This document shows, in pieces, positions 1,704 through 50,138 of a stretch of 64,000 nt of DNA. Every line of letters begins with the position of its first letter. Position 1 is the stretch's first letter. The DNA is from Gillisia lutea. GTDB taxonomy: Bacteria > Bacteroidota > Bacteroidia > Flavobacteriales > Flavobacteriaceae. The stretch lies in the NCBI RefSeq assembly GCF_021568705.1, contig NZ_JAKGTH010000010.1:256416-320415 (forward strand), given 5' to 3'. Below the pieces are notes generated by a model. That model searched no databases. It saw only the letters and a program-made list of their open reading frames with translations, and was not told the DNA's origin. The position numbers were made by a program, and so were the translations under genes.

Positions 1704-2296
1704 TAATTCTTTCAACAAATAAGGATATTGGCGAGAACTATTCCTCTTACCCTATTAAAACCGCAAAGTTAAAGCGGATTATTAATAAAATAAACGCCGG
1801 AGAACTTTTATATGTTAATCTTTATCATGAAGATGAAGAGAAACTTTTTAAGCATTTGCTTAAAAAATTACCGGTTGTAACAGCTGCCGGAGGAATGGTG
1901 TTTAACGATAATGAAGAAATACTATTTATTTACAGAAATAAACGTTGGGACCTTCCTAAAGGAAAGACTGAAAAAGGTGAGTCTTTAGAAGAAAGTGCTA
2001 TCAGGGAGGTAGAAGAGGAGACGGGAGTGAAGGATCTTGAGATTAGACGTTTCCTTAGAAAGACCTATCATATTTTTAAGCGTAAGGATAAATTTAAGCT
2101 GAAGGTCACTCACTGGTATGAAATGTATTCTCCCTATACAGGAGAGCTGATACCCGAACATTCGGAAGGGATTAAGAAAGTGAAGTGGAAGAACTTTGCA
2201 AAGTCTCAAAAAGCCCTCACAAAATCTTATGCTAACATAAAATTACTTTTTCCAAAAGAATATTTAACGACCCACCCGGAAGATAGGGTAGCGTAA
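1673..2296 (+). CDS. NUDIX hydrolase, 207 aa
   Basis: Hydrolyses a nucleoside diphosphate linked to another moiety; the substrate cannot be read from the sequence. The Nudix box is complete at residues 97-119: G97, E103, R111, then EVEEETGV with the metal-binding glutamates. An N-terminal extension of about 65 residues (MYKVFVNDIPII...) precedes the NUDIX fold, and a tail follows in which WKNFAKSQKAL could close the active site. There is no signal peptide. The start lies seven bases from the divergent pyrE start. Its 3' end overlaps the convergent M14 peptidase gene by 33 bases, with no terminator between them. Confidence 0.92.
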   Translation: MYKVFVNDIPIILSTNKDIGENYSSYPIKTAKLKRIINKINAGELLYVNLYHEDEEKLFKHLLKKLPVVTAAGGMVFNDNEEILFIYRNKRWDLPKGKTEKGESLEESAIREVEEETGVKDLEIRRFLRKTYHIFKRKDKFKLKVTHWYEMYSPYTGELIPEHSEGIKKVKWKNFAKSQKALTKSYANIKLLFPKEYLTTHPEDRVA

Positions 2297-4015
2297 GTGT
2301 GCTTTTTCGTAATATTTAGATTTTTTGTGAAGCCATTCTAATTGTGAATACCAATTTTTGGAAAATTCAGCGTCACTTTTTTTCTTATCCTGAAACTCTT
2401 CATTCAATGCTTGATCTTTATCGAGCATTTTTTTTGCAATATCTTCAAACACATAGGGGGAGAACCCTTCTTTCTGCTGAAGGATACTGTCGAAGAAATT
2501 CCAGTTGAAAAACGAATCGTGAGCAATAGGTTCCAGTGTTTCTAATAAATATCGTACCGCAGGCTGAAAGCTTTTTATGTACATATCGCCTTTTCTGAAC
2601 TTAACACTGTCTTTGGTGGTGAGCACCGAAGTATTGGAATGAGGATAATGACCTTCATAAGGCGTGTTGGAAGTATCGTATTTGTCGACATGATATACCT
2701 CAACCAGAAGCGTAGTATCTCTTTCAAAAGCGGTCATTTCCACCTTATTAGATTTTAGAATTTCTAATACATTCCACCAGCCTTGGGGAATTATATAAGC
2801 TCGCGGAATTTCTATCTGGTTTGTGGCCTTAAAATTATTATAGTAGTCGGTTTCCTTAGTAAAAGGCTTAGTTGTATCGTACTTTAACCTGTTTTCACCG
2901 GTTATCTCACTGGTAATGGTCTCTGCTTCAAAACCTTTAAAATTTAGTTTTGTCACTTTGCTGCTATCTACTTTAAAATTAGTTGGGTAGTAGCGTTCTG
3001 TGAGGTATTTTCGTTGCGCCCGTGCTCGAAGGTCTTTTATGGTTTCAACATCTCTTTCAGCGATATCTATAATAGAGGAAAGAGCTTTGTAGGTACCGCG
3101 TACTCGTTTGTTATATGGTTTCAGCATGTGCGTTTCAATCATCAACCCAAGCGTATTCCAAAGGCTGGTATAGCCGGTAGAATAACGAGGGTGATCCATA
3201 AATTGGGTGAAACCCTTTTCTGGCACCGCGTTAAAAACATTCACATAAGGGGTGATATCCCATTCATGTTCCCATAATATTTTTTCTAAAGAGGGCATCA
3301 TTTTTTTGTGAAGATAATTACCCAGTTCTCCTCCTAGTTTATTGTGTTGAGTGAATAAATGAGTTAGGGTATATTGATAATCGGCACCATTACTAACGTG
3401 AGTATCAATAAAAATATCAGGTTTCACCTTATGGAAAATTTCGGCAAAGCTTTTTGTGTTCTTGGTGTCACTTTTAATAAAATCTCGGTTTAGATCGTAA
3501 TTTCTGGCATTTCCGCGAAATCCGTATTCCTTTGGTCCGTTTTGATTGGTTCTTGACGTAGAATTTCTGTTTAATGCTCCTCCAATATTATAAACCGGGA
3601 TAGCAGCAAGAATAGTGTTTTTTGGCACATTGATAGAATCCTGAGCAAGGTCTCTAAAAAGAAGCATGGTTGCATCAATTCCATCACTTTCTCCGGGATG
3701 AATTCCATTGTTGATAAGGACAATATTGTGGTCTTCTCTTAAATTGTCAAAATCGAACTCCTCATCGGGGCTAAAAATTGCTAAATGTAGAGGCTCTCCA
3801 CTATCTGTAGTACCATACTCTTCAAAGCTTACAGTAGGATAGGTTTCGGCTAATTCCTGATAAAAATCGATAATCTGCTTATAAGTAGCTGTTTTTTTGC
3901 CTTCAGATTTCTCAAATACGGTTTCAAAATCGTATTTTTTTTCCAACTTATACTTAGATAGATCGCAAGATATCAGGCAAATAAGGGAAATTGCCGCTAT
4001 AGCTATTTTTTTCAT
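2264..4015 (-). CDS. M14-family zinc carboxypeptidase, lipoprotein
   Basis: Predicted zinc metallopeptidase of the carboxypeptidase A family, exported and lipid-anchored. The N-terminus is a lipoprotein signal with the lipobox LISC (Cys17). Zinc ligands fit H106 and E109 in HPGESD and H206 in DTHVSN, and YDLNRDF (173-179) supplies the substrate-carboxylate arginine. The C-terminal 300 residues resemble no domain I can name; they are probably the family's usual accessory region. At 583 aa it matches the long peptidases common in Bacteroidota. The -7-like TAGATTTG at 4048-4055 on the minus strand could be its promoter. Likely role: trimming peptides in the periplasm or at the surface. Confidence 0.88.
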   Translation of the reverse strand: MKKIAIAAISLICLISCDLSKYKLEKKYDFETVFEKSEGKKTATYKQIIDFYQELAETYPTVSFEEYGTTDSGEPLHLAIFSPDEEFDFDNLREDHNIVLINNGIHPGESDGIDATMLLFRDLAQDSINVPKNTILAAIPVYNIGGALNRNSTSRTNQNGPKEYGFRGNARNYDLNRDFIKSDTKNTKSFAEIFHKVKPDIFIDTHVSNGADYQYTLTHLFTQHNKLGGELGNYLHKKMMPSLEKILWEHEWDITPYVNVFNAVPEKGFTQFMDHPRYSTGYTSLWNTLGLMIETHMLKPYNKRVRGTYKALSSIIDIAERDVETIKDLRARAQRKYLTERYYPTNFKVDSSKVTKLNFKGFEAETITSEITGENRLKYDTTKPFTKETDYYNNFKATNQIEIPRAYIIPQGWWNVLEILKSNKVEMTAFERDTTLLVEVYHVDKYDTSNTPYEGHYPHSNTSVLTTKDSVKFRKGDMYIKSFQPAVRYLLETLEPIAHDSFFNWNFFDSILQQKEGFSPYVFEDIAKKMLDKDQALNEEFQDKKKSDAEFSKNWYSQLEWLHKKSKYYEKAHLRYPIFRVGR

Positions 4016-4183
4016 AGAGCTGAACCAATTAATAATATAAACTTACTCAAATCTACCAAGGCTGCCAAACCTAAATATATAAGTAGATATTCCTTATCTA
4101 TTGTTAAATTAAACCCAATGAGACTTCAAAATTTCACCTCATTTAATTTAAAGATTATTTTTAAGCTCAAATTAAAAAAAAAT

Positions 4184-5458
4184 ATGAAAAAGATTACCTT
4201 AGGCTTCTTATTGCTGACTGTTGGATTTAGTGCTAATGCACAGATGAAGGAGCTTGATGACAAACGAAAAGAGGAATTATCTCAAAGAGCCCCCGACACC
4301 GTTCAAACTACAATTGGGGAATTAATTTTGCCGGCACCCTTTCATTCGGCTTCTATTCAAAAAGTTAGTAAAGTAATAGGCTGGCCGGAAAATAAAACCC
4401 CTAAAGCTCCTCAGGGTTTTAAAGTTGAGAGATATGCCGATGGCTTTAAACATCCACGATGGACCTATATAGCTCCTAATAAAGATATTTTTGTCGTAGA
4501 GGCAAATACCCGAAATAGTGCCGATAGAATTACAATTTTAAGAGATACTGATACAGATGGTGTTTTTGAGCATCGAGGTGTTTTTATGGAGGGTTTAAAT
4601 CAGCCCTTCGGTATGCTGGTTTTAAACGGCTACTTCTATGTGGCCAATACTGATGGTTTATATAGGTATCCCTATTCTGAAGGTGATTTGAAAATTGAAT
4701 CTAAAGGTGAGAAAATAGTAGAGCTTCCGGCCGGTGGATATAATAATCATTGGACACGTAATCTACTGGCTAATGCCGATGGATCCAAGATCTATATTTC
4801 TGTAGGTTCTGCCAGTAATGTAGGAGAGTATGGAATGGACAAAGAAGTGAAACGTGCAGGGATTTTGGAGATTAATCCTGATGGAAGTGGTGAACGTATC
4901 TTTGCTTCCGGAATTAGAAACCCGGTAGGTATGGACTGGAATCCTGTTACGGGCGAACTCTGGACAGCAGTAAATGAGAGGGATAAGATTGGAAATAACT
5001 TAGTGCCAGATTATATAACAAGTGTAAAGGAAAACGGATGGTATGGCTGGCCTTATTCTTATTTCGGGCAAATTGAAGATCCGAGATGGGAAGACGACCC
5101 TCATACAGCTCTTGTAGAAAAAACTATCGTTCCAGATGTAGCAGTTGGCGCGCATACTGCTTCCTTAGGATTCTCTTTCTATACAGCAAATCAATTTCCG
5201 AATAAATATAAAAACGGAGCTTTTGTTGGACAGCACGGATCTTGGAACCGCGCAAATTTATCGGGTTATAAGGTAGTATTTGTGCCTTTTATTAACGGAG
5301 TTCCACAGCAGCCGGAGGATTTTTTAACCGGATTTTTAGCAAATGAAAAGGAAAGTGAAGTGTATGGAAGACCAGTTGGAGTAACCACTTTACCTGATGG
5401 GTCTTTGTTAGTTAACGATGACGATTCAAATATCCTTTGGAGAGTTATAGCCGAATAA
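4184..5458 (+). CDS. Sorbosone/aldose dehydrogenase-like secreted protein (PQQ-type beta-propeller)
   Basis: Secreted beta-propeller protein of the sorbosone/soluble glucose dehydrogenase family, whose characterised members oxidise aldehydes or sugars with pyrroloquinoline quinone (PQQ). I place the start at ATG 4184, because the residues from there, MKKITLGFLLLTVGFSANAQ, form a clean signal peptide; an in-frame ATG at 4118 would add 22 residues ahead of it. The mature 404 residues contain the family segments NHWTRNL, the propeller repeats, GQHGSWNRANLSGYKVVFV and RPVGVTTLPDGSLLVNDD. No PQQ synthesis gene is in the window. The TonB-dependent receptor starts ten bases downstream, so the two form a transcription unit. 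The exact substrate is unknown. Confidence 0.85.
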   Translation: MKKITLGFLLLTVGFSANAQMKELDDKRKEELSQRAPDTVQTTIGELILPAPFHSASIQKVSKVIGWPENKTPKAPQGFKVERYADGFKHPRWTYIAPNKDIFVVEANTRNSADRITILRDTDTDGVFEHRGVFMEGLNQPFGMLVLNGYFYVANTDGLYRYPYSEGDLKIESKGEKIVELPAGGYNNHWTRNLLANADGSKIYISVGSASNVGEYGMDKEVKRAGILEINPDGSGERIFASGIRNPVGMDWNPVTGELWTAVNERDKIGNNLVPDYITSVKENGWYGWPYSYFGQIEDPRWEDDPHTALVEKTIVPDVAVGAHTASLGFSFYTANQFPNKYKNGAFVGQHGSWNRANLSGYKVVFVPFINGVPQQPEDFLTGFLANEKESEVYGRPVGVTTLPDGSLLVNDDDSNILWRVIAE

Positions 5459-5468
5459 TATCAAAAAA

Positions 5469-7757
5469 TTGAAAAGATACTTTCTCTCACTCTTCTTATT
5501 TGCTGTGGCTTCCATTGTGAATGCTCAGCAAATTAAGGGTAGAATAATAAATTCTACTACTTCGGGAGTAGTCGAGAATGCTCGCATTCTTGATGTCACG
5601 ACCGGAGTTATTGTTTTTTCGGATGCTAGGGGAGAGTTTGAGATAACTTCCAACCAAAAGACCTTGCGATTGGAGATTACAGCGAAATCATATTATATTA
5701 AAAAAGTAGAGATACCTGTTGCTGATCTTTTAGAAATAGCCCTTCTTCCATTGCCGGAAATGCTTTCCGAAGTAATAGTCAAAGGAAGTGTTTTTTCAAA
5801 CGAACTACGTCAAGTTCCTGCCTCGGTAGGAATGCTTACTAAGAAAGATCTAGAAAGAATTGATGCCGGAAACATGGTTCAGGTTTTCAATAACATTCCT
5901 GGGATATATGTTAATCAGGGGGCTTTAAATACTACTAAGTTAAGCATTCGCGGAATTGGCGCAAGATCACAATATAACACCAATAGAATTCAGGCTTATT
6001 TAAATGAAATTCCGCTTACAACGGGTGAGGGGGAACTAACTTTAGATGATCTTGATGTAGAATCCCTTTCTTCGATAGAAATAATAAAAGGCCCTACTTC
6101 CAGTCTCTACGGTGCAGGCTTGGGCGGAGTAATAAACCTATATGCGAAAAGTGAGAATGCCGAGAAAACTCAAACTTCAGCTGCTACACAAGTTGGGAGT
6201 TATGGGTTTTTGAAAAATACTATTGTAGCCTCCCATGCAACTGCAGATATAAATGTGTATGCTAATTATAACGATTTGCAAAGTAATGGATATAGGGATA
6301 ACGGTTCTTACAAGCGCCAGTCGGGTTTAGTAAATATTGAATTTCCTTCCACTAACGGAAATAGCCTGAATGTAGTGGCAAATTATACTCATTTAAAAGC
6401 ATTTATTCCCAGCTCACTAAACGAAGACGATTTTATAAATTCCCCGGAGAAAGCTGCATTTACATGGGGGAAATCGAAGGGTTACGAATCTTATAATTGC
6501 GGATTGCTGGGAGTTGCGTATACTACTAACATAGCTCCTAAACTAAAAAATACTACTGCCACTTATATTAATTTTAAAAATGCCTTTGAGCCGCGACCTT
6601 TTGATATACTAAAGGAAGAGCGAATTTCTACAGGAATGCGTACAAAGTTTAGGTACCTCACTGAATTTTTTGAGTTGCCTTCAGATCTTGTTTTTGGTGG
6701 GGAATATTACAGGGAGTGGTATGAAATGGCGACTTTTCAAAATTTATACGAAGAAAATGAAGGTCAGGGAAGCCTGCGAGGAAGTCAGTTAAGCAATAAT
6801 GAACAGGATAGGAGTTACGTCAATTTCTTTGGACAATTTAAAGTTGAAGCTACAAAATCTCTTGATCTGGAAATGGGACTAAATTTTAACACAACGCAGT
6901 ATCAGCTTAATGATATCTTTGAGAATGATGATTTAGACCAAAGCGGAAATTATAAATTTAAAACAGTTCTTTCTCCCAGGTTAGCTGCAAGTTATGAAGT
7001 AGCTTCCCAAAAGAATATATACGCATCTATAAGCCACGGTTTTTCCACTCCTAGTGTTTCAGAAACACTCACTCCCGAAGGGGAAATAAATACTTCGCTT
7101 AAACCTGAAACGGGAATTAATTATGAAATTGGTTTTAAAGGGAATTGGTTTAATAATGCTCTTTATACAGAACTCGCATTATATTCTATTCAGGTTAAAA
7201 ATTTATTAGTCGCGCAACGAATAGCTGAAGACCGCTATGTGGGGGTAAATGCAGGAAAAACCAATCATAATGGAATAGAACTATTTACAACCTATAATTT
7301 ACTGGTTTCAGACAATATCGCAATAAACCCCTATTTTAATTCAGCTATAAACTTCTTTGAATTTGAAGATTTTACGAATAATGAAATAGATTATTCAGGG
7401 AAACAACTTCCGGGAGTTCCGGAATATACTTTTAATTTAGGTATGGATATTACCTTTTTTAATTCTCTTAGGGTATATAGCAGTTTAATGAACGTTGGGC
7501 AAATTGCTTTAAATGATGCAAATTCTCTTTTTAGTGACGCTTATCAATTGCTTAATGTGAAAGCCTCTTACCAGCTACCGCTTTTTAAGGTGATGAATTT
7601 AAATTTGTCGGCAGGAATAAATAATTTATTAAATGAAAAATATGCTTCTAGCATTTTACCAAATGCTGTAGGTTTTGGAGGTGCGTCTCCCAGATATTAT
7701 TATCCCGGAAATCCGCGAAATTACTTTGCAGGTATAGGATTGAATTATATCTTTTGA
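5469..7757 (+). CDS. TonB-dependent outer-membrane receptor
   Basis: Outer-membrane active transporter of 762 aa. Order: signal peptide (1-19, cleaved before QQIKGR), a carboxypeptidase-regulatory-like Ig domain (about 20-105), a plug domain (about 110-235, with LSIRGIGARSQYN and SIEIIKGPTSSLYGAGLGGVINL), and a 22-strand barrel ending in the typical terminal phenylalanine (GLNYIF). The start is TTG at 5469, which is required to give the signal peptide. There is no SusD partner, so it is not a polysaccharide-utilisation receptor. It is co-transcribed with the PQQ-type dehydrogenase, which suggests import of a small cofactor or substrate used by that enzyme. It runs convergently into the PfpI gene with a three-base gap. 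Confidence 0.93.
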   Translation: MKRYFLSLFLFAVASIVNAQQIKGRIINSTTSGVVENARILDVTTGVIVFSDARGEFEITSNQKTLRLEITAKSYYIKKVEIPVADLLEIALLPLPEMLSEVIVKGSVFSNELRQVPASVGMLTKKDLERIDAGNMVQVFNNIPGIYVNQGALNTTKLSIRGIGARSQYNTNRIQAYLNEIPLTTGEGELTLDDLDVESLSSIEIIKGPTSSLYGAGLGGVINLYAKSENAEKTQTSAATQVGSYGFLKNTIVASHATADINVYANYNDLQSNGYRDNGSYKRQSGLVNIEFPSTNGNSLNVVANYTHLKAFIPSSLNEDDFINSPEKAAFTWGKSKGYESYNCGLLGVAYTTNIAPKLKNTTATYINFKNAFEPRPFDILKEERISTGMRTKFRYLTEFFELPSDLVFGGEYYREWYEMATFQNLYEENEGQGSLRGSQLSNNEQDRSYVNFFGQFKVEATKSLDLEMGLNFNTTQYQLNDIFENDDLDQSGNYKFKTVLSPRLAASYEVASQKNIYASISHGFSTPSVSETLTPEGEINTSLKPETGINYEIGFKGNWFNNALYTELALYSIQVKNLLVAQRIAEDRYVGVNAGKTNHNGIELFTTYNLLVSDNIAINPYFNSAINFFEFEDFTNNEIDYSGKQLPGVPEYTFNLGMDITFFNSLRVYSSLMNVGQIALNDANSLFSDAYQLLNVKASYQLPLFKVMNLNLSAGINNLLNEKYASSILPNAVGFGGASPRYYYPGNPRNYFAGIGLNYIF

Positions 7758-45256: not shown

Positions 45257-46393
45257 TTAGAATGTTTTTCTGAAGAAAGATCTAATAAATTCAGGGTGGT
45301 ATAAGGACCACATTATTTTTAATTCTTCTCTTAATGAAGTTTCTTCATCTAAGTATTCAAAGATGTGTTCGATAGAGTTTTTTCTATAGAATTTGGCGAA
45401 TAATTCTTCTCCCATTTCATTATTGTTAAAAAGAACATCAAGGAAAATAGCATCATACCATCTTGATCTTTTTTTAAGCAATTTATAAGAAGGGCGTTTC
45501 CCCAGTTTAATATTCTGTAGCATCAAACTTATCTTTTTTTCTGTATGCTTAAAGGAATATCCCGTTGAAGCCTTTACCCAAGACCCCGCAGTTCCTATTT
45601 TAGTAACTTTGGAATTACTGTGCTTATGGAAAGGAAAATCAGTCATTGGGATAATTCCCTTTTCAGTTTCCAATATTTTGTATTCTGAAAGCTGTAAATT
45701 TTTCTCCAAATATTTTTTCAGCATTTCATCATATATTTTATCCTCCGTCAGGAAAGGGGTGAAAAAAGTAGATTCTACCAGCGCTTTTGTTTCAGAAATA
45801 GGAAGTACATATATAAAACTTGTTGTGTCTTTATACTTCCCTCTGTAATCCATCATTGTGAATTCTGAAGGATTGAATTGCGATGAAGGGGTTTCAATCA
45901 TCCATCCCTTGAAATGTTGAAAGATCTTAGTAGAAGCATTGTCTTCGAGGTACTCGTTGGAAACACGGCTGTCGAAAAAGTGGGTTACAAAATAGGTGTC
46001 CTTTTCTCCTATTGCAATAGAATTTTTTTCGTCAATATCTATAATGAGATCTTCTATGAATTCAAACTGTGTTGTTTTTCGCAATTCAGCCTGAGCAAAA
46101 TCATAGAAATCAATAGATCTCAACATTTTGTAGGTGTAGGGTAGGAGTGCTAATTCAAGTTTTCCTTCAGAAGAAAAAAAGTTTGCTTTTGTCCATCGTT
46201 TGGTAATAAGTGAATCCCATTTTCCCGGACCCTTTTCCCAAAAACACCAGGTTTTATCATTGCTCTTTTTTGAAGAGGGTTCAATGATGGCTATACGCTT
46301 ATTACTGAAAAAATCATCTTTATGAAATGCTAACGCAAGCTGCAGTCCTGCCAGTCCTCCGCCAATTATGATGTAATCAAACTCTTTAGACAT
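45257..46393 (-). CDS. crtY: Lycopene beta-cyclase
   Basis: Flavoprotein (378 aa) that cyclises both ends of lycopene to give beta-carotene. The dinucleotide-binding motif IIIGGGLAGLQLALAF is at about 8-23. WCFWEKGPGKWDSL and, near the C-terminus, TAGSWVKASTGYSFKHTEKKI match the family, as does RSRWYDAIFLDVLFNN. It is the last gene of the carH-crtI-crtB-crtZ-crtY operon, 19 bases after crtZ. It is a CrtY-type (single polypeptide) rather than the CrtYcd heterodimer. Confidence 0.92.
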   Translation of the reverse strand: MSKEFDYIIIGGGLAGLQLALAFHKDDFFSNKRIAIIEPSSKKSNDKTWCFWEKGPGKWDSLITKRWTKANFFSSEGKLELALLPYTYKMLRSIDFYDFAQAELRKTTQFEFIEDLIIDIDEKNSIAIGEKDTYFVTHFFDSRVSNEYLEDNASTKIFQHFKGWMIETPSSQFNPSEFTMMDYRGKYKDTTSFIYVLPISETKALVESTFFTPFLTEDKIYDEMLKKYLEKNLQLSEYKILETEKGIIPMTDFPFHKHSNSKVTKIGTAGSWVKASTGYSFKHTEKKISLMLQNIKLGKRPSYKLLKKRSRWYDAIFLDVLFNNNEMGEELFAKFYRKNSIEHIFEYLDEETSLREELKIMWSLYHPEFIRSFFRKTF

Positions 46394-46412: not shown

Positions 46413-46862
46413 CTATTTCTTAAAATATTTAATTGGTACCCAAAGCATTCCGAAACACTCCCCGTGATCTTTCCCTAAATGTTTATGGTGCATTTTATGG
46501 GCACGACGCACACCTTTAGCATACCGGTTATTGGCATTTCTGAATATCTTAAAGCGTTGATGAATAAAAATATCATGCACGGTAAAATAGGCAATTCCGT
46601 AAGCTAGAATTCCAGCGCCAATAGGTAAGCCAATCCACAGGTCGTTGTATTTCCATGACAGGAAGAAACTGATACTTACAATTGCATAAAAAACAAAGAA
46701 CAAATCGTTGCGTTCCCACCAACTGCTATGGTCCTTCCTGTGATGATCTGCATGGAGTTTCCATAAAAACCCGTGCATTACATATTTGTGAGTAAACCAA
46801 GCCATTCCCTCCATTATTAAGAAGGTTCCTAAAAATACCAAGATCCAAAGTAAAATATCCAT
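46413..46862 (-). CDS. crtZ: Beta-carotene hydroxylase
   Basis: Di-iron membrane hydroxylase (149 aa) that adds 3- and 3'-hydroxyls to beta-carotene, giving zeaxanthin. Histidine boxes are H25...H30 (HKYVMH), H37-HADHH-41, H96...H101 (HDIFIH) and H122-HKMHHKH-128, matching the fatty-acid-hydroxylase fold. It overlaps crtB by one base (TAATG). No ketolase is present, so zeaxanthin is the predicted end product of this cluster. Confidence 0.92.
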   Translation of the reverse strand: MDILLWILVFLGTFLIMEGMAWFTHKYVMHGFLWKLHADHHRKDHSSWWERNDLFFVFYAIVSISFFLSWKYNDLWIGLPIGAGILAYGIAYFTVHDIFIHQRFKIFRNANNRYAKGVRRAHKMHHKHLGKDHGECFGMLWVPIKYFKK

Positions 46863-47701
46863 TATATTAAATTTAATCTATATGATATGTATGATTTTGC
46901 TAATAGTCCCGCTTTTTGATAGTTGGGCACACTTATTCTTTTATTCTTAATTTCTAAAGATGGAGTTTTTTTCAATTTATGCAGTAATTTATAATAATAG
47001 ATATAAGCTGTGTAAACTCCGAATTTGGCTTCTACAGGTAGTTTGGAAATTCCTTTTAGTCCCTCATGGAAATCGGCCTCGATTTCTTTAATAATTCGCT
47101 GTTTGCTTGTTTCATCTAAAGCATTCAAATTAGTATTAGGAAAATAACTCCTACTAAGATCTTCAAAATCGGCTTTTAGATCTCTTAAGAAATTGACTTT
47201 TTGAAATGCCGAACCTAAGTGCATTGCCGATTCTTTTAGATCATCATACCTGTTCTGATCGCCATTTACAAATACCTTTAAACACATCAAGCCAACCACA
47301 TCGGCACTGCCATAAATATACTCTTTATATTCCTGTTGTGTAAGATAAACTGATTTATGCAGATCTAACTTCATGCTTTTTAAAAAGGCATCATATAATG
47401 ATTTTTCAATCCCGTAATTATGAACGGTCTCCTGAAAGGAATTGAGAATTGGATTTAAACTAATTTTATTATCAATAGCTTTGTATAGGTCATTACTGAA
47501 GTCCTCTAAAAGTTCCTCTTTATTGTATCCATGAAAGGAATCCACGATTTCATCGGCAAATCGAACAAAACCATAAATATTGTATATATCCTGGCGAATG
47601 CTCGGGGCCAGCATTTTGGTTGCCAGGGAGAAGGACGTGCTATAAGCCTGGGTTACAGTTTTACTGCAGGCTTTTGAAACTGTATCAAAAATTGATTTCA
47701 T
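46862..47701 (-). CDS. crtB: Phytoene synthase
   Basis: Condenses two geranylgeranyl diphosphates to phytoene, the first committed step (279 aa). The two Asp-rich motifs for Mg-diphosphate are DEIVD (50-54) and DLKAD (174-178), each DxxxD. SFSLATKMLAPSIRQDIYNIYGFVRFAD is the family start. It overlaps crtI by four bases and crtZ by one. The GGPP synthase needed for its substrate is not in this window. Confidence 0.95.
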   Translation of the reverse strand: MKSIFDTVSKACSKTVTQAYSTSFSLATKMLAPSIRQDIYNIYGFVRFADEIVDSFHGYNKEELLEDFSNDLYKAIDNKISLNPILNSFQETVHNYGIEKSLYDAFLKSMKLDLHKSVYLTQQEYKEYIYGSADVVGLMCLKVFVNGDQNRYDDLKESAMHLGSAFQKVNFLRDLKADFEDLSRSYFPNTNLNALDETSKQRIIKEIEADFHEGLKGISKLPVEAKFGVYTAYIYYYKLLHKLKKTPSLEIKNKRISVPNYQKAGLLAKSYISYRLNLI

Positions 47702-49164
47702 AATTTATGTTCTTTTTGAATGAGTCCGGAAACTAATTTTCCTGAAATAAGGGAAGGAGGTACTCCCGGCCCCGGCACTGTTAATTGTCCGGTAAAAAAT
47801 AAACCTTCTACTTTGCTGCTTTTTAGCTTAGGGCGCAAAAAAGCGGTTTGTAAAAGGGTATTTGCCATGCCATATGCATTTCCTTTGTAACTATTATAGT
47901 CTTTAATAAAATCGTTTACACAAAAGGATTCTTTAAAAAGTACGTTATTTCTAATACTTTGGTTTGTTATTTCTTCAAACCGACTTAGTATTTTATTGAA
48001 ATATTCTTCTCTAAGGGCTGGAGTATCTTTTAGTCCCGGAGCTAACGGGATTAAGAAAAAGCCATTTTCACAACCTTCTGGTGCTGTTTCAGGATCTGTT
48101 ATCGAAGTGAAATTTGCGTAAAATAGTGGTTCTGATGGCCATTTTGGTTCATCATAAATATCTTTGGCGTGGGCATCAAAATCTACATCAAAGAACAGAT
48201 TATGATGATGCACATTCTTTAATTTTTTATCAAATCCTACAAAGAAGAGCAGGGAGGAAGGCGCAAAGGTCTTTTTCTCCCAGTAATTTTCTGAATACTG
48301 TCGGTGTTCTGGCTCTAGCAAGGTTTCACTATGATGGTAATCGGCACCGCTTACAACGATATCAGTATCTATAACTTCTCCATTAATTTTGATGGACGTT
48401 ACCTTTTTATTTAAAATATGTATTTTTTCTATGTTTGCATTCGTCTGTATTTTCACACCAAGGGAAAGCGCCAGTTGTTCCATCCCTTTTATAACTTGAA
48501 ACATACCGCCCCTTGGTTGCCATGTTCCTAATCCGAAATCGGCGTAATTCATGAAGCTATAGAAAGATGGTGTATCACTAGGTTTAGCACCTAGAAATAG
48601 CACTGGAAACTCTAATATCTGGATAAGCTTTTCATTCTTAAATTCCTTGCGCACATCTCTGGAGATCGTACTAAAGAATTGCCCTATCTTTTTAATAGTC
48701 TTTGCTGTTACCAGCTCTAAAGGAGAAACTCCAGGGCGGTAAACCAAGTCTTTAATAGCAATGTTGTAATTGTCTTGTGCGTGATCAATAAACTTTTTTA
48801 GTTTTACCGAGCTTCCTGATTCTTCTATTTCAAAAGCAGCATATATTTTTTCTAAAGTATCTTCTATTGTTATGCTTTCATCTTTGTTGAAGAAAACTTT
48901 GTAGGCGGGATTGAGTTTGTTCAGCTGGTAGTAATCTGAAGTTTTTTTATTAAAATCTGTGAAAAAGCTATCGAATACATCTGGCATCCAATACCATGAA
49001 GGTCCCATATCGAAAGTGAAACCATCTTTTTTGAATTGTCTCGCACGTCCACCTATACCATCGTTTTTTTCAAAAATAGTTACCTGGTATCCGTTTTTAG
49101 CCAGATAGCAAGAAGCTGCCAAGGAGGCAAATCCCGAACCAATTATGCTTACTTTTTTAGTCAT
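47698..49164 (-). CDS. crtI: Phytoene desaturase
   Basis: FAD-dependent desaturase (488 aa) converting phytoene to lycopene through four steps. The N-terminal IIGSGFASLAASCYLAKNGY with FEKNDGIGGRARQF forms the FAD site. FTFDMGPSWYWMPD and the C-terminal LFFTGQLTVPGPGVPPSLISGKLV are characteristic of bacterial CrtI. It overlaps the regulator gene by eight bases and crtB by four. Confidence 0.95.
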   Translation of the reverse strand: MTKKVSIIGSGFASLAASCYLAKNGYQVTIFEKNDGIGGRARQFKKDGFTFDMGPSWYWMPDVFDSFFTDFNKKTSDYYQLNKLNPAYKVFFNKDESITIEDTLEKIYAAFEIEESGSSVKLKKFIDHAQDNYNIAIKDLVYRPGVSPLELVTAKTIKKIGQFFSTISRDVRKEFKNEKLIQILEFPVLFLGAKPSDTPSFYSFMNYADFGLGTWQPRGGMFQVIKGMEQLALSLGVKIQTNANIEKIHILNKKVTSIKINGEVIDTDIVVSGADYHHSETLLEPEHRQYSENYWEKKTFAPSSLLFFVGFDKKLKNVHHHNLFFDVDFDAHAKDIYDEPKWPSEPLFYANFTSITDPETAPEGCENGFFLIPLAPGLKDTPALREEYFNKILSRFEEITNQSIRNNVLFKESFCVNDFIKDYNSYKGNAYGMANTLLQTAFLRPKLKSSKVEGLFFTGQLTVPGPGVPPSLISGKLVSGLIQKEHKL

Positions 49165-50062
49165 TATAAATTAGTTCGTTTGAAAATTCTGGAATAGACT
49201 TATAAATCTTGATATTTTGTTGAAAATCTTCTGGTTCTAAATTTTGTATTCTTCCTCCTAATAAATAGAGATCTCGAGCCTTGTCAGTACATAATTCCTT
49301 GGTAAATTCATCAATAAAGTCAGGTAACTCAGTTGGAACTATAGTTAGATAGCTAATAAATTTTATATTAGGATGTATTTCCAGTAGGTATTTCATATCT
49401 CGTAAAGGCATGCTGGGTCCTAGGTAGATGGTTTTTTTATTATGTAGGTTGAGCTCGTAATTAAGATAGAGAATGCCTAGATCATGTATCTCATTCTCCG
49501 GTAGAAAGAGTACATATAGTTCGTCTTTATCGAAATTTTCAATTTCTTCGAGTTGTGCAATATTCAAATAAAGTTTTTGTTTAATCATTCCTGTTAAAAA
49601 ATGTTCATGTACCGGATTTATAGTATCCGTTTGCCAAAGCAGTCCAATCTCATTTAACAAGGGAATAAAAACTTCTTGAAATATTTCTCTGAAGGATTTA
49701 GTTTGAAGCAGAAGATTGTAGGTTCCATTGAATAAGGCCTGATCGAAATTAATCATGGCGATTTTAAAGGAATTTACCGCACGATTTTCCTCACTGGCAC
49801 TGGCAGCAACCTCTTTTACCATTTTATTGATCTCTGGATCACTTAGTTTGGCTATTCGGGATATTTTATAGCCATGTTCATTTAGAAAGGTTACATTCAA
49901 GATCTTTTGAAGATTACTGAGATCGTAGGTTCTAATATTGGTTTCTGTGCGATCCGGGTTTAAAATATTGTATCGCTTCTCCCAAATACGTATGGTATGA
50001 GCTTTTATACCGCTAAGGTGCTCTAGATCTTTGATGCTAAAATTTTGTTTCAGATGCTCCAT
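49157..50062 (-). CDS. carH: MerR-type regulator with B12-binding domain (CarH-like photoreceptor)
   Basis: Transcription factor of 301 aa heading the carotenoid operon. N-terminal MerR winged helix (about 7-75: FSIKDLEHLSGIKAHTIRIWEKRY), then a four-helix bundle and a B12-binding Rossmann domain (about 180-300). The residues that define AdoCbl photoreceptors of the CarH/LitR type are all present: Wx9EH as Trp143, Glu153, His154, and ExHxxG as Glu191, His193, Gly196; the bundle histidine would be the upper-face ligand and His193 the lower axial ligand. Known CarH represses carotenoid genes in the dark and releases DNA in light. Function here is by analogy. Confidence 0.88.
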   Translation of the reverse strand: MEHLKQNFSIKDLEHLSGIKAHTIRIWEKRYNILNPDRTETNIRTYDLSNLQKILNVTFLNEHGYKISRIAKLSDPEINKMVKEVAASASEENRAVNSFKIAMINFDQALFNGTYNLLLQTKSFREIFQEVFIPLLNEIGLLWQTDTINPVHEHFLTGMIKQKLYLNIAQLEEIENFDKDELYVLFLPENEIHDLGILYLNYELNLHNKKTIYLGPSMPLRDMKYLLEIHPNIKFISYLTIVPTELPDFIDEFTKELCTDKARDLYLLGGRIQNLEPEDFQQNIKIYKSIPEFSNELIYND

Positions 50063-50085: not shown

Positions 50086-50138
50086 TGTTTTAGACTGATG
50101 AAACAAAATGTTTAATCATTTATTTAAAACATTAAACA
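50086..50138. promoter_or_regulatory. Candidate CarH operator array
   Basis: Four copies of the heptamer TGTTTWA lie upstream of carH: on the plus strand at 50086-50092 (TGTTTTA) and 50109-50115 (TGTTTAA), and on the minus strand at 50131-50125 and 50138-50132. TGTTTAAT (50109-50116) and ATTAAACA (50131-50138) form an 8-bp inverted repeat with a 14-base centre. Their density fits binding by several dimers or a tetramer. Confidence 0.5.

Follow-up and report, generated by a model that had tools for sequence, protein, structure and literature searches.

A CarH-like gene heads a carotenoid operon

The analyzed window is a stretch of 64,000 nucleotides from the genome of Gillisia lutea (3.18 Mb in 14 contigs). 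An open reading frame on its minus strand occupies exactly positions 49157-50062 and encodes a product of 301 aa; plus-strand frame 1 over the same positions is broken by many stops. These are the coordinates that an earlier note on this DNA had assigned, naming no strand, to a light-sensing regulator. Pfam searches placed a MerR domain at residues 8-73 (PF13411, 50.5 bits, 2.3e-13) and a four-helix B12-binding_2 domain at residues 98-165 (PF02607, 8.4e-10), both above the cut-off, and a Rossmann-like part with His193 follows. Genome-wide, B12-binding_2 matched two proteins, the CarH-like protein and a MetH-type protein.

The gene, referred to here as carH, is followed by genes in the order crtI-crtB-crtZ-crtY, all on the minus strand: the phytoene desaturase gene crtI (47698-49164; NCBIfam NF058655, 734 bits, cut-off 640), the phytoene synthase gene crtB (46862-47701; PF00494), a crtZ-like beta-carotene hydroxylase gene (46413-46862), and the lycopene cyclase gene crtY (45257-46393; PF05834). 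The crtZ-like frame yielded no Pfam or NCBIfam match at E ≤ 0.001, and its identity is presumed from its place and its His motifs.

By the CarH-like protein, the nearest named relative is Gillisia limnaea (78% identity), and matches at E ≤ 1e-15 were found in 203 of 249 genomes of the family (Flavobacteriaceae, judging by the Gillisia match). The alignment joined the window protein to 125 proteins taken from fetched loci, one of which is its own sequence again (L012). After removal of this duplicate, the alignment contains 106 sequences of clade A, the window protein included, and 19 of a more distant clade B, the clades being defined by similarity and not by a tree. Since some species occur twice, by name and by handle, clade A holds 101 distinct proteins besides that of the window. 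A crtI gene lies within 300 nt downstream of carH in 100 of the 106 clade-A loci and in 3 of the 19 clade-B loci. Where more than 5 kb of downstream sequence is available for clade A (n = 67), crtI was detected in 65 loci, crtB in 66, crtZ in 66, and crtY in 20. In clade B (L111-L125, L128, L129), where W-G (15 sequences), W-S, or W-T replaces W-Q at Trp143 and the residue after it, most loci have no crtI within about 1.4 kb.

The carH and crtI frames overlap by 8 nt (ATGACTAA, 49157-49164). The suggestion that sensor and pigment genes would be induced together through translational coupling fits this genome but does not extend to the family as a rule: among 95 distinct clade-A relatives with an adjoining crtI, 4 show an overlap and the median gap is 43 nt.

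Signature motifs are conserved, while residues of the Thermus light state differ

Both motifs named in the earlier note, Wx9EH (Trp143, Glu153, His154) and ExHxxG (Glu191, His193, Gly196), lie at the positions given there. W143, E153, E191, and H193 are each present in 125 of 125 sequences (the window protein and 124 others), H154 in 120, and G196 in 122; with four invariant residues, the two motifs are not a chance occurrence. The MerR-domain helix, tested against RxWERRY, reads RIWEKRY, so that R25, W27, E28, R30, and Y31 are kept and position 29 is Lys. The top PDB sequence matches were structures of Thermus CarH (3whp/5c8d, E = 1e-12), and the match rose to 7e-23 when a family profile served as query.

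The protein departs from the classic B12 motif (D/ExHx2G-x41-SxT/V-x22-27-GG) beyond ExHxxG, with x40 before the Ser, SxL in place of SxT/V, and x29 before GG; the GG is present, and its second Gly is not conserved among relatives. Its score against the NCBIfam CarH equivalog NF052513 is 62.1 bits, below the cut-off of 400, and a Pfam scan gave no match to the Rossmann B12 domain PF02310. An AlphaFold2 model built from 64 window and locus sequences (mean pLDDT 90.8) nevertheless retrieved Thermus CarH 5c8e as the first Foldseek match (E = 4.1e-14). Over the whole chain, the TM score by query was 0.55, with a large rmsd; for the isolated B12 domain, normalized to target length, it was about 0.8. 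The Chloracidobacterium MerR B12 domain 8jbs was also among the fold matches. From the match to Thermus CarH we predict that the protein has a Rossmann part of divergent sequence.

Compared with Thermus thermophilus CarH (5C8D/5C8E/5C8F), the Gillisia protein shares the MerR domain, the RxWE(R/K)RY helix, both signature motifs, and the fold at about 21% identity, and the Thermus carH gene likewise adjoins crtB and a photolyase gene. His132, which takes the cobalt after illumination (PMC10442372), corresponds to Gln144, and the Arg176/Asp201 head-to-tail interface pair corresponds to Ile192/Ser217. Position 144 is Gln in 103, His in 2, and Leu in 1 of the 106 clade-A sequences, and Gly (15), Ser (2), or Thr (2) in clade B. 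The Arg176 position is Ile in 96 of 106 clade-A sequences, and the Asp201 position Ser in 64 and Thr in 31, so that the interface pair is kept neither in the Gillisia protein nor in most of clade A.

Across the phylum, a profile search at E ≤ 1e-20 gave hits in 64 of 296 genomes. Among 40 loci outside the family, fetched from 43 listed places, none has His at position 144. The Trp is kept in 38, and W, EH, and the lower-ligand His occur together in 35, which suggests that the other 5 are probably not B12 sensors. Among eight CarH-like genes on plasmids, His at this position occurs in two Thermus genes and in that of Persicobacter, whose protein lacks both EH and the lower His; the proteins of Comamonas, Caballeronia, Azoarcus, Eleftheria, and Rhizobium have no His there.

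These data bear on two alternatives. The protein could be an ordinary CarH that forms the head-to-tail tetramer of Thermus, binds direct repeats, and follows the same light chemistry, altered by neutral drift only. The common domains, motifs, fold, and gene context would suit this explanation, the Thermus-like neighborhood included, whereas the loss of the bis-His residue in nearly all Bacteroidota homologues examined and the prevalence of Ile and Ser/Thr at the interface positions argue against it; its operator is considered below. Secondly, the fold could be retained in a regulator without a direct light response, one that senses the AdoCbl supply or relies on another light input. Myxococcus xanthus CarA, which has the same domain order as the Gillisia protein, keeps the B12 motif and works without B12 (PMC9304148), and class II LitR acts together with a LOV partner (PMC9758184); the degenerate tail motif and the missing His132 point in the same direction. 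Yet CarA lacks the Trp of Wx9EH, according to the available text of PMC9304148, while this Trp, like Glu153, is invariant in our 125 sequences, and the candidate regulon described below includes a photolyase. We consider a CarA-like or B12-level regulator quite improbable.

A palindrome precedes carH and two further operons

At 50109-50138, 46 bp from the carH ATG, lies the predicted operator TGTTTAATGTTTTAAATAAATGATTAAACA (minus-strand reading), a palindrome of the form TGTTTAA-N16-TTAAACA. It occurs three times in the genome: before carH, 35 bp from an operon of SRPBCC, SDR, and photolyase genes, and 31 bp from a TetR-AarF operon. The two copies outside the window lie at 19119-19148 of contig C8 and 110998-111027 of contig C7. 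The name SRPBCC for the first gene of the photolyase operon is our reading of its sequence, which gave no Pfam or NCBIfam match. The TetR-AarF pair (positions 1964-6123 of locus L133) is divergent from an htpG-like gene. The shorter form TGTTTA-N18-TAAACA is present three times, versus once for a reversed control. Allowing up to two mismatches added 14 places, giving 17 versus 11 in the control; as this is close to background, we kept the regulon at three operons. Since carH and the photolyase operon have the palindrome in common, we predict a regulon that extends beyond pigment genes.

TnnACA, the core motif of the direct repeats bound by CarH (PMC9304148), recurs in the palindrome arms. Upstream of carH, an inverted TnnACA pair at offset 24 was found 15 times, versus 0.7 in shuffled sequences. 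Enrichment was also seen for an inverted pair that overlaps at offset 3 (18 versus 0.7) and for a same-strand spacing of 8 (16 versus 1.0); offset 24 was pursued because it alone is common to the other operons. The inverted repeat TGTYTA-N18-TARACA is present in 13 of 105 carH upstream regions, that of the window included.

Thermus CarH, in contrast to the palindrome found here, uses tandem 11-bp direct repeats (PMC9304148). Same-strand TGTnnA spacing of 11 (the 11-bp repeat nnnnTnnACAn) showed no excess upstream of carH, and spacings of 10 and 12 bp showed small ones (6 versus 1.4 and 5 versus 1.1). These small excesses are what an ordinary CarH could claim; the inverted pair is stronger, and we favor the palindrome over direct repeats as the candidate operator. 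What the three operons have in common is an inverted repeat, which counts against an ordinary, merely drifted CarH; together with the residue differences above, we regard that alternative as improbable.

The position of the palindrome relative to promoter elements was compared among relatives. In 69 of 104 clade-A loci, the start of TTTGTTTA lies exactly 25 nt ahead of the carH ATG; the sequence is fused as TAnnTTTGTTTAA with a TAnnTTTG element, which we take to be the Bacteroidetes -7 box. Of TAnnTTTG elements within 60 nt of carH, 70 of 94 are followed by TTTAA, versus 13 of 1170 in the remainder of these loci (a count obtained by subtraction). The palindrome lies between carH and crtI in 39 of 95 distinct clade-A relatives, and either there or at carH itself in 49 of 101. 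Among 41 such carH-crtI regions, duplicates kept, TAnnTTTG is found inside the palindrome at offset 15 in 33. In 13 of 20 SRPBCC promoters it lies at offset 39-40, about 10 bp past the palindrome, and 3 of the 20 have none; of 12 TetR promoters with the palindrome, 5 have none. Between palindrome and carH ATG in this genome (50063-50108) there is no clear TAnnTTTG, unlike in close relatives. Where the element can be placed, the palindrome would hinder RNA polymerase, which makes repression the natural reading. We regard the palindrome as a likely operator.

The palindrome co-occurs with CarH across the family

Of the 249 genomes of the family, 186 fall in clade A, and 183 of these carry the exact palindrome (698 sites, mean 3.75, versus 24 sites, mean 0.13, for the control); clade A here means all CarH-positive genomes except 17 with a best match of only 1e-39 to 1e-52, most being assigned by match score without fetched loci. 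Outside clade A it occurs in 6 of the 17 clade-B-only genomes and in 8 of the 46 that gave no CarH match. These 8 are all 73-94% complete, so the carH gene may simply be missing from their assemblies. Among CarH-free genomes at least 95% complete the count is 0 of 15, versus 183 of 186 in clade A (P = 5e-20; this and the following Fisher tests treat genomes as independent and ignore kinship). The three clade-B-only genomes with crtI beside CarH (G007, G241, G025) hold 9 of 12 palindromes. Among the 19 clade-B loci, 8 have half-sites upstream and 6 have a looser palindrome, and outside the family a palindrome lies near the start in 3 of 40 loci.

The SRPBCC promoters show the same contrast. A palindrome is present in 20 of 28 from CarH-positive versus 1 of 7 from CarH-negative genomes (P = 0.0099), and a half-site in 25 of 28 versus 1 of 7 (P = 0.0003), with an average of 0 palindromes and 1.8 half-sites in shuffled promoters; the search for SRPBCC and TetR genes covered 20 of the 46 CarH-negative genomes, and among the seven CarH-negative matches two are weak and perhaps not orthologous (G022, G030), and the palindrome-bearing one is from an 81% complete genome (G079). 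TetR promoters gave no significant contrast (12 of 27 CarH-positive versus 1 of 2 CarH-negative, P = 1.0). A photolyase gene accompanies 27 and an SDR gene 23 of 30 SRPBCC loci (4 from CarH-negative genomes), and AarF is found in all 28 TetR loci (2 from CarH-negative genomes).

Could another regulator, such as the TetR protein P0003, bind the palindrome and track CarH through ancestry or lifestyle? This would concern the operator and not the photoreceptor. P0003 was found in 26 of 28 CarH-positive versus 2 of 20 CarH-negative genomes, CarH-free genomes may cluster in the tree, and CarH and P0003 are the regulators surveyed for co-occurrence. Two genomes (G018, G077), however, have palindromes without a P0003 match at E ≤ 1e-10, and a 99% complete one (G059) has P0003 and SRPBCC matches and neither a CarH match nor a palindrome. 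Within one genus, a clade-A genome (G006) has five palindromes and a clade-B-only genome (G240) none, in agreement with the co-occurrence. Together with the recurrence of the palindrome at carH or in the carH-crtI gap among clade-A relatives, this makes a different binder unlikely.

Beyond the three operons, we inspected another 20 loci with a palindrome, each from a different genome; a candidate frame is in reach in 19, and in 7 of these there is one on either side. Of 26 candidate frames, 13 were identified or scanned: BLAST recognized two SRPBCC and three TetR proteins, and Pfam/NCBIfam fasciclin (4), TspO, MsrA, DUF2867, OsmC, mevalonate-kinase-like, and Porph_ging proteins, some of which look unrelated to light. 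The fasciclin genes follow the palindrome in four flavobacteria (L302, L305, L306, L308), and two further loci look similar by eye (L307, L311). TspO, MsrA, and mevalonate-kinase-like genes adjoin palindromes in other genomes (L313, L314, L317). A fasciclin gene also adjoins the CarH-like gene on the Eleftheria plasmid (positions 915-1373 of L295).

Genes for cobalamin uptake and adenosylation are present

The search for B12 uptake and AdoCbl genes suggested in the earlier note yielded both uptake-type genes and a PduO-type adenosyltransferase. A cobalamin riboswitch precedes a TonB receptor gene, with genes for a periplasmic binding protein and a FecCD permease adjoining, and the genome also encodes MetH and methylmalonyl-CoA mutase. 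Given the uptake-type genes, the adenosyltransferase, and the mutase, it is plausible that AdoCbl is available to this organism. MetH is apparently split into two frames, of 338 and 895 aa, and the next gene looks metF-like by eye (positions 2008-5716 of L137).

A proposed variant of the B12 photoreceptor in flavobacteria

The Gillisia protein likely works like CarH, and it is very probably a B12-based light sensor that turns on genes for yellow pigment and DNA repair. The earlier identification as a CarH-type AdoCbl photoreceptor heading the crt operon thus stands on the domains, the PDB and fold matches, the motifs, the proximity of crtI, and the AdoCbl genes, and needs amending where Gln144, the tail motif, and the Arg-Asp pair depart from Thermus-type CarH. 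We therefore classify the protein as a CarH/LitR variant: it has the signature motifs but differs in the tail motif, interface pair, His132, and curated score, and perhaps in the type of operator. Our preferred reading, to which we give a probability of about three in four, is an AdoCbl-dependent dark repressor of a light-defense regulon whose light state is not the bis-His form of Thermus. The gene, its motifs and predicted fold, the gene order, the missing residues, and the palindrome with its co-occurrence are computational results; AdoCbl binding, light response, repression, and the binding of CarH to the palindrome are inferred.

In the dark, the repressor would bind adenosylcobalamin with His193 as lower cobalt ligand, and Trp143, Glu153, and His154 would cap the adenosyl group. 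It would then sit on TGTTTAA-N16-TTAAACA, overlapping or abutting the promoter. Light would break the Co-C bond, the adenosyl group would leave, and the repressor would release the DNA, so that the carH-crtIBZY, SRPBCC-SDR-photolyase, and TetR-AarF operons would be induced together. Because residue 144 is Gln, the light state cannot take the Thermus His177-Co-His132 form. We would expect aquo- or hydroxocobalamin with one protein ligand, or else ligation by another residue, possibly His152 (present in 100 of 106 clade-A sequences) or His154, and a quaternary change unlike that of the Thermus head-to-tail tetramer. The H132A variant of Thermus CarH is described as mostly tetrameric after light, with an earlier report of disassembly cited (PMC10442372); by this precedent, the loss of His132 could also mean a weakened light response.

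Class I LitR/CarH proteins of Bacillus megaterium and myxobacteria are likewise AdoCbl-dependent dark repressors of crt genes, a role that is only predicted here; their operators are described as tandem direct repeats, and the tail motif and interface residues of the Gillisia protein differ from theirs (PMC9304148, PMC8156234). Plasticity is already known in this group, given that myxobacterial operators vary and Cystobacter CarH is a dimer (PMC9304148, PMC8156234). The His132-type residue is reported from many, not all, myxobacterial CarH proteins, and the M. xanthus operator contains inverted repeats (PMC9304148). The flavobacterium Chryseobacterium lacus has light-induced carotenoids, with zeaxanthin assumed; the available text of that study speculates on a CarA/LitR-like gene and names no B12 sensor (PMC7064467). 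MliR of Bizionia was rejected as a characterized homologue, being described in the accessible part of PMC9478572 as a coiled-coil type without a B12 domain. Among the literature matches listed, in which subscription journals are thinly covered, we found no description of a flavobacterial CarH operator or regulon.

Bacteroidota CarH might even represent a separate design, with no bis-His link, symmetric binding to a 30-bp palindrome, and a family-wide light-defense regulon of carotenoid and photolyase genes, joined in some genomes by fasciclin, TspO, MsrA, and mevalonate-kinase-like genes; we see even odds for this broader proposal. The structural model of B12 photoreceptors rests on Thermus CarH, where His132 takes the cobalt after light, and homologues that lack this His and retain the adenosyl pocket are a natural means of testing which of its features hold generally. 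For the flavobacterial light response, the palindrome provides a concrete candidate operator and a short list of regulon members.
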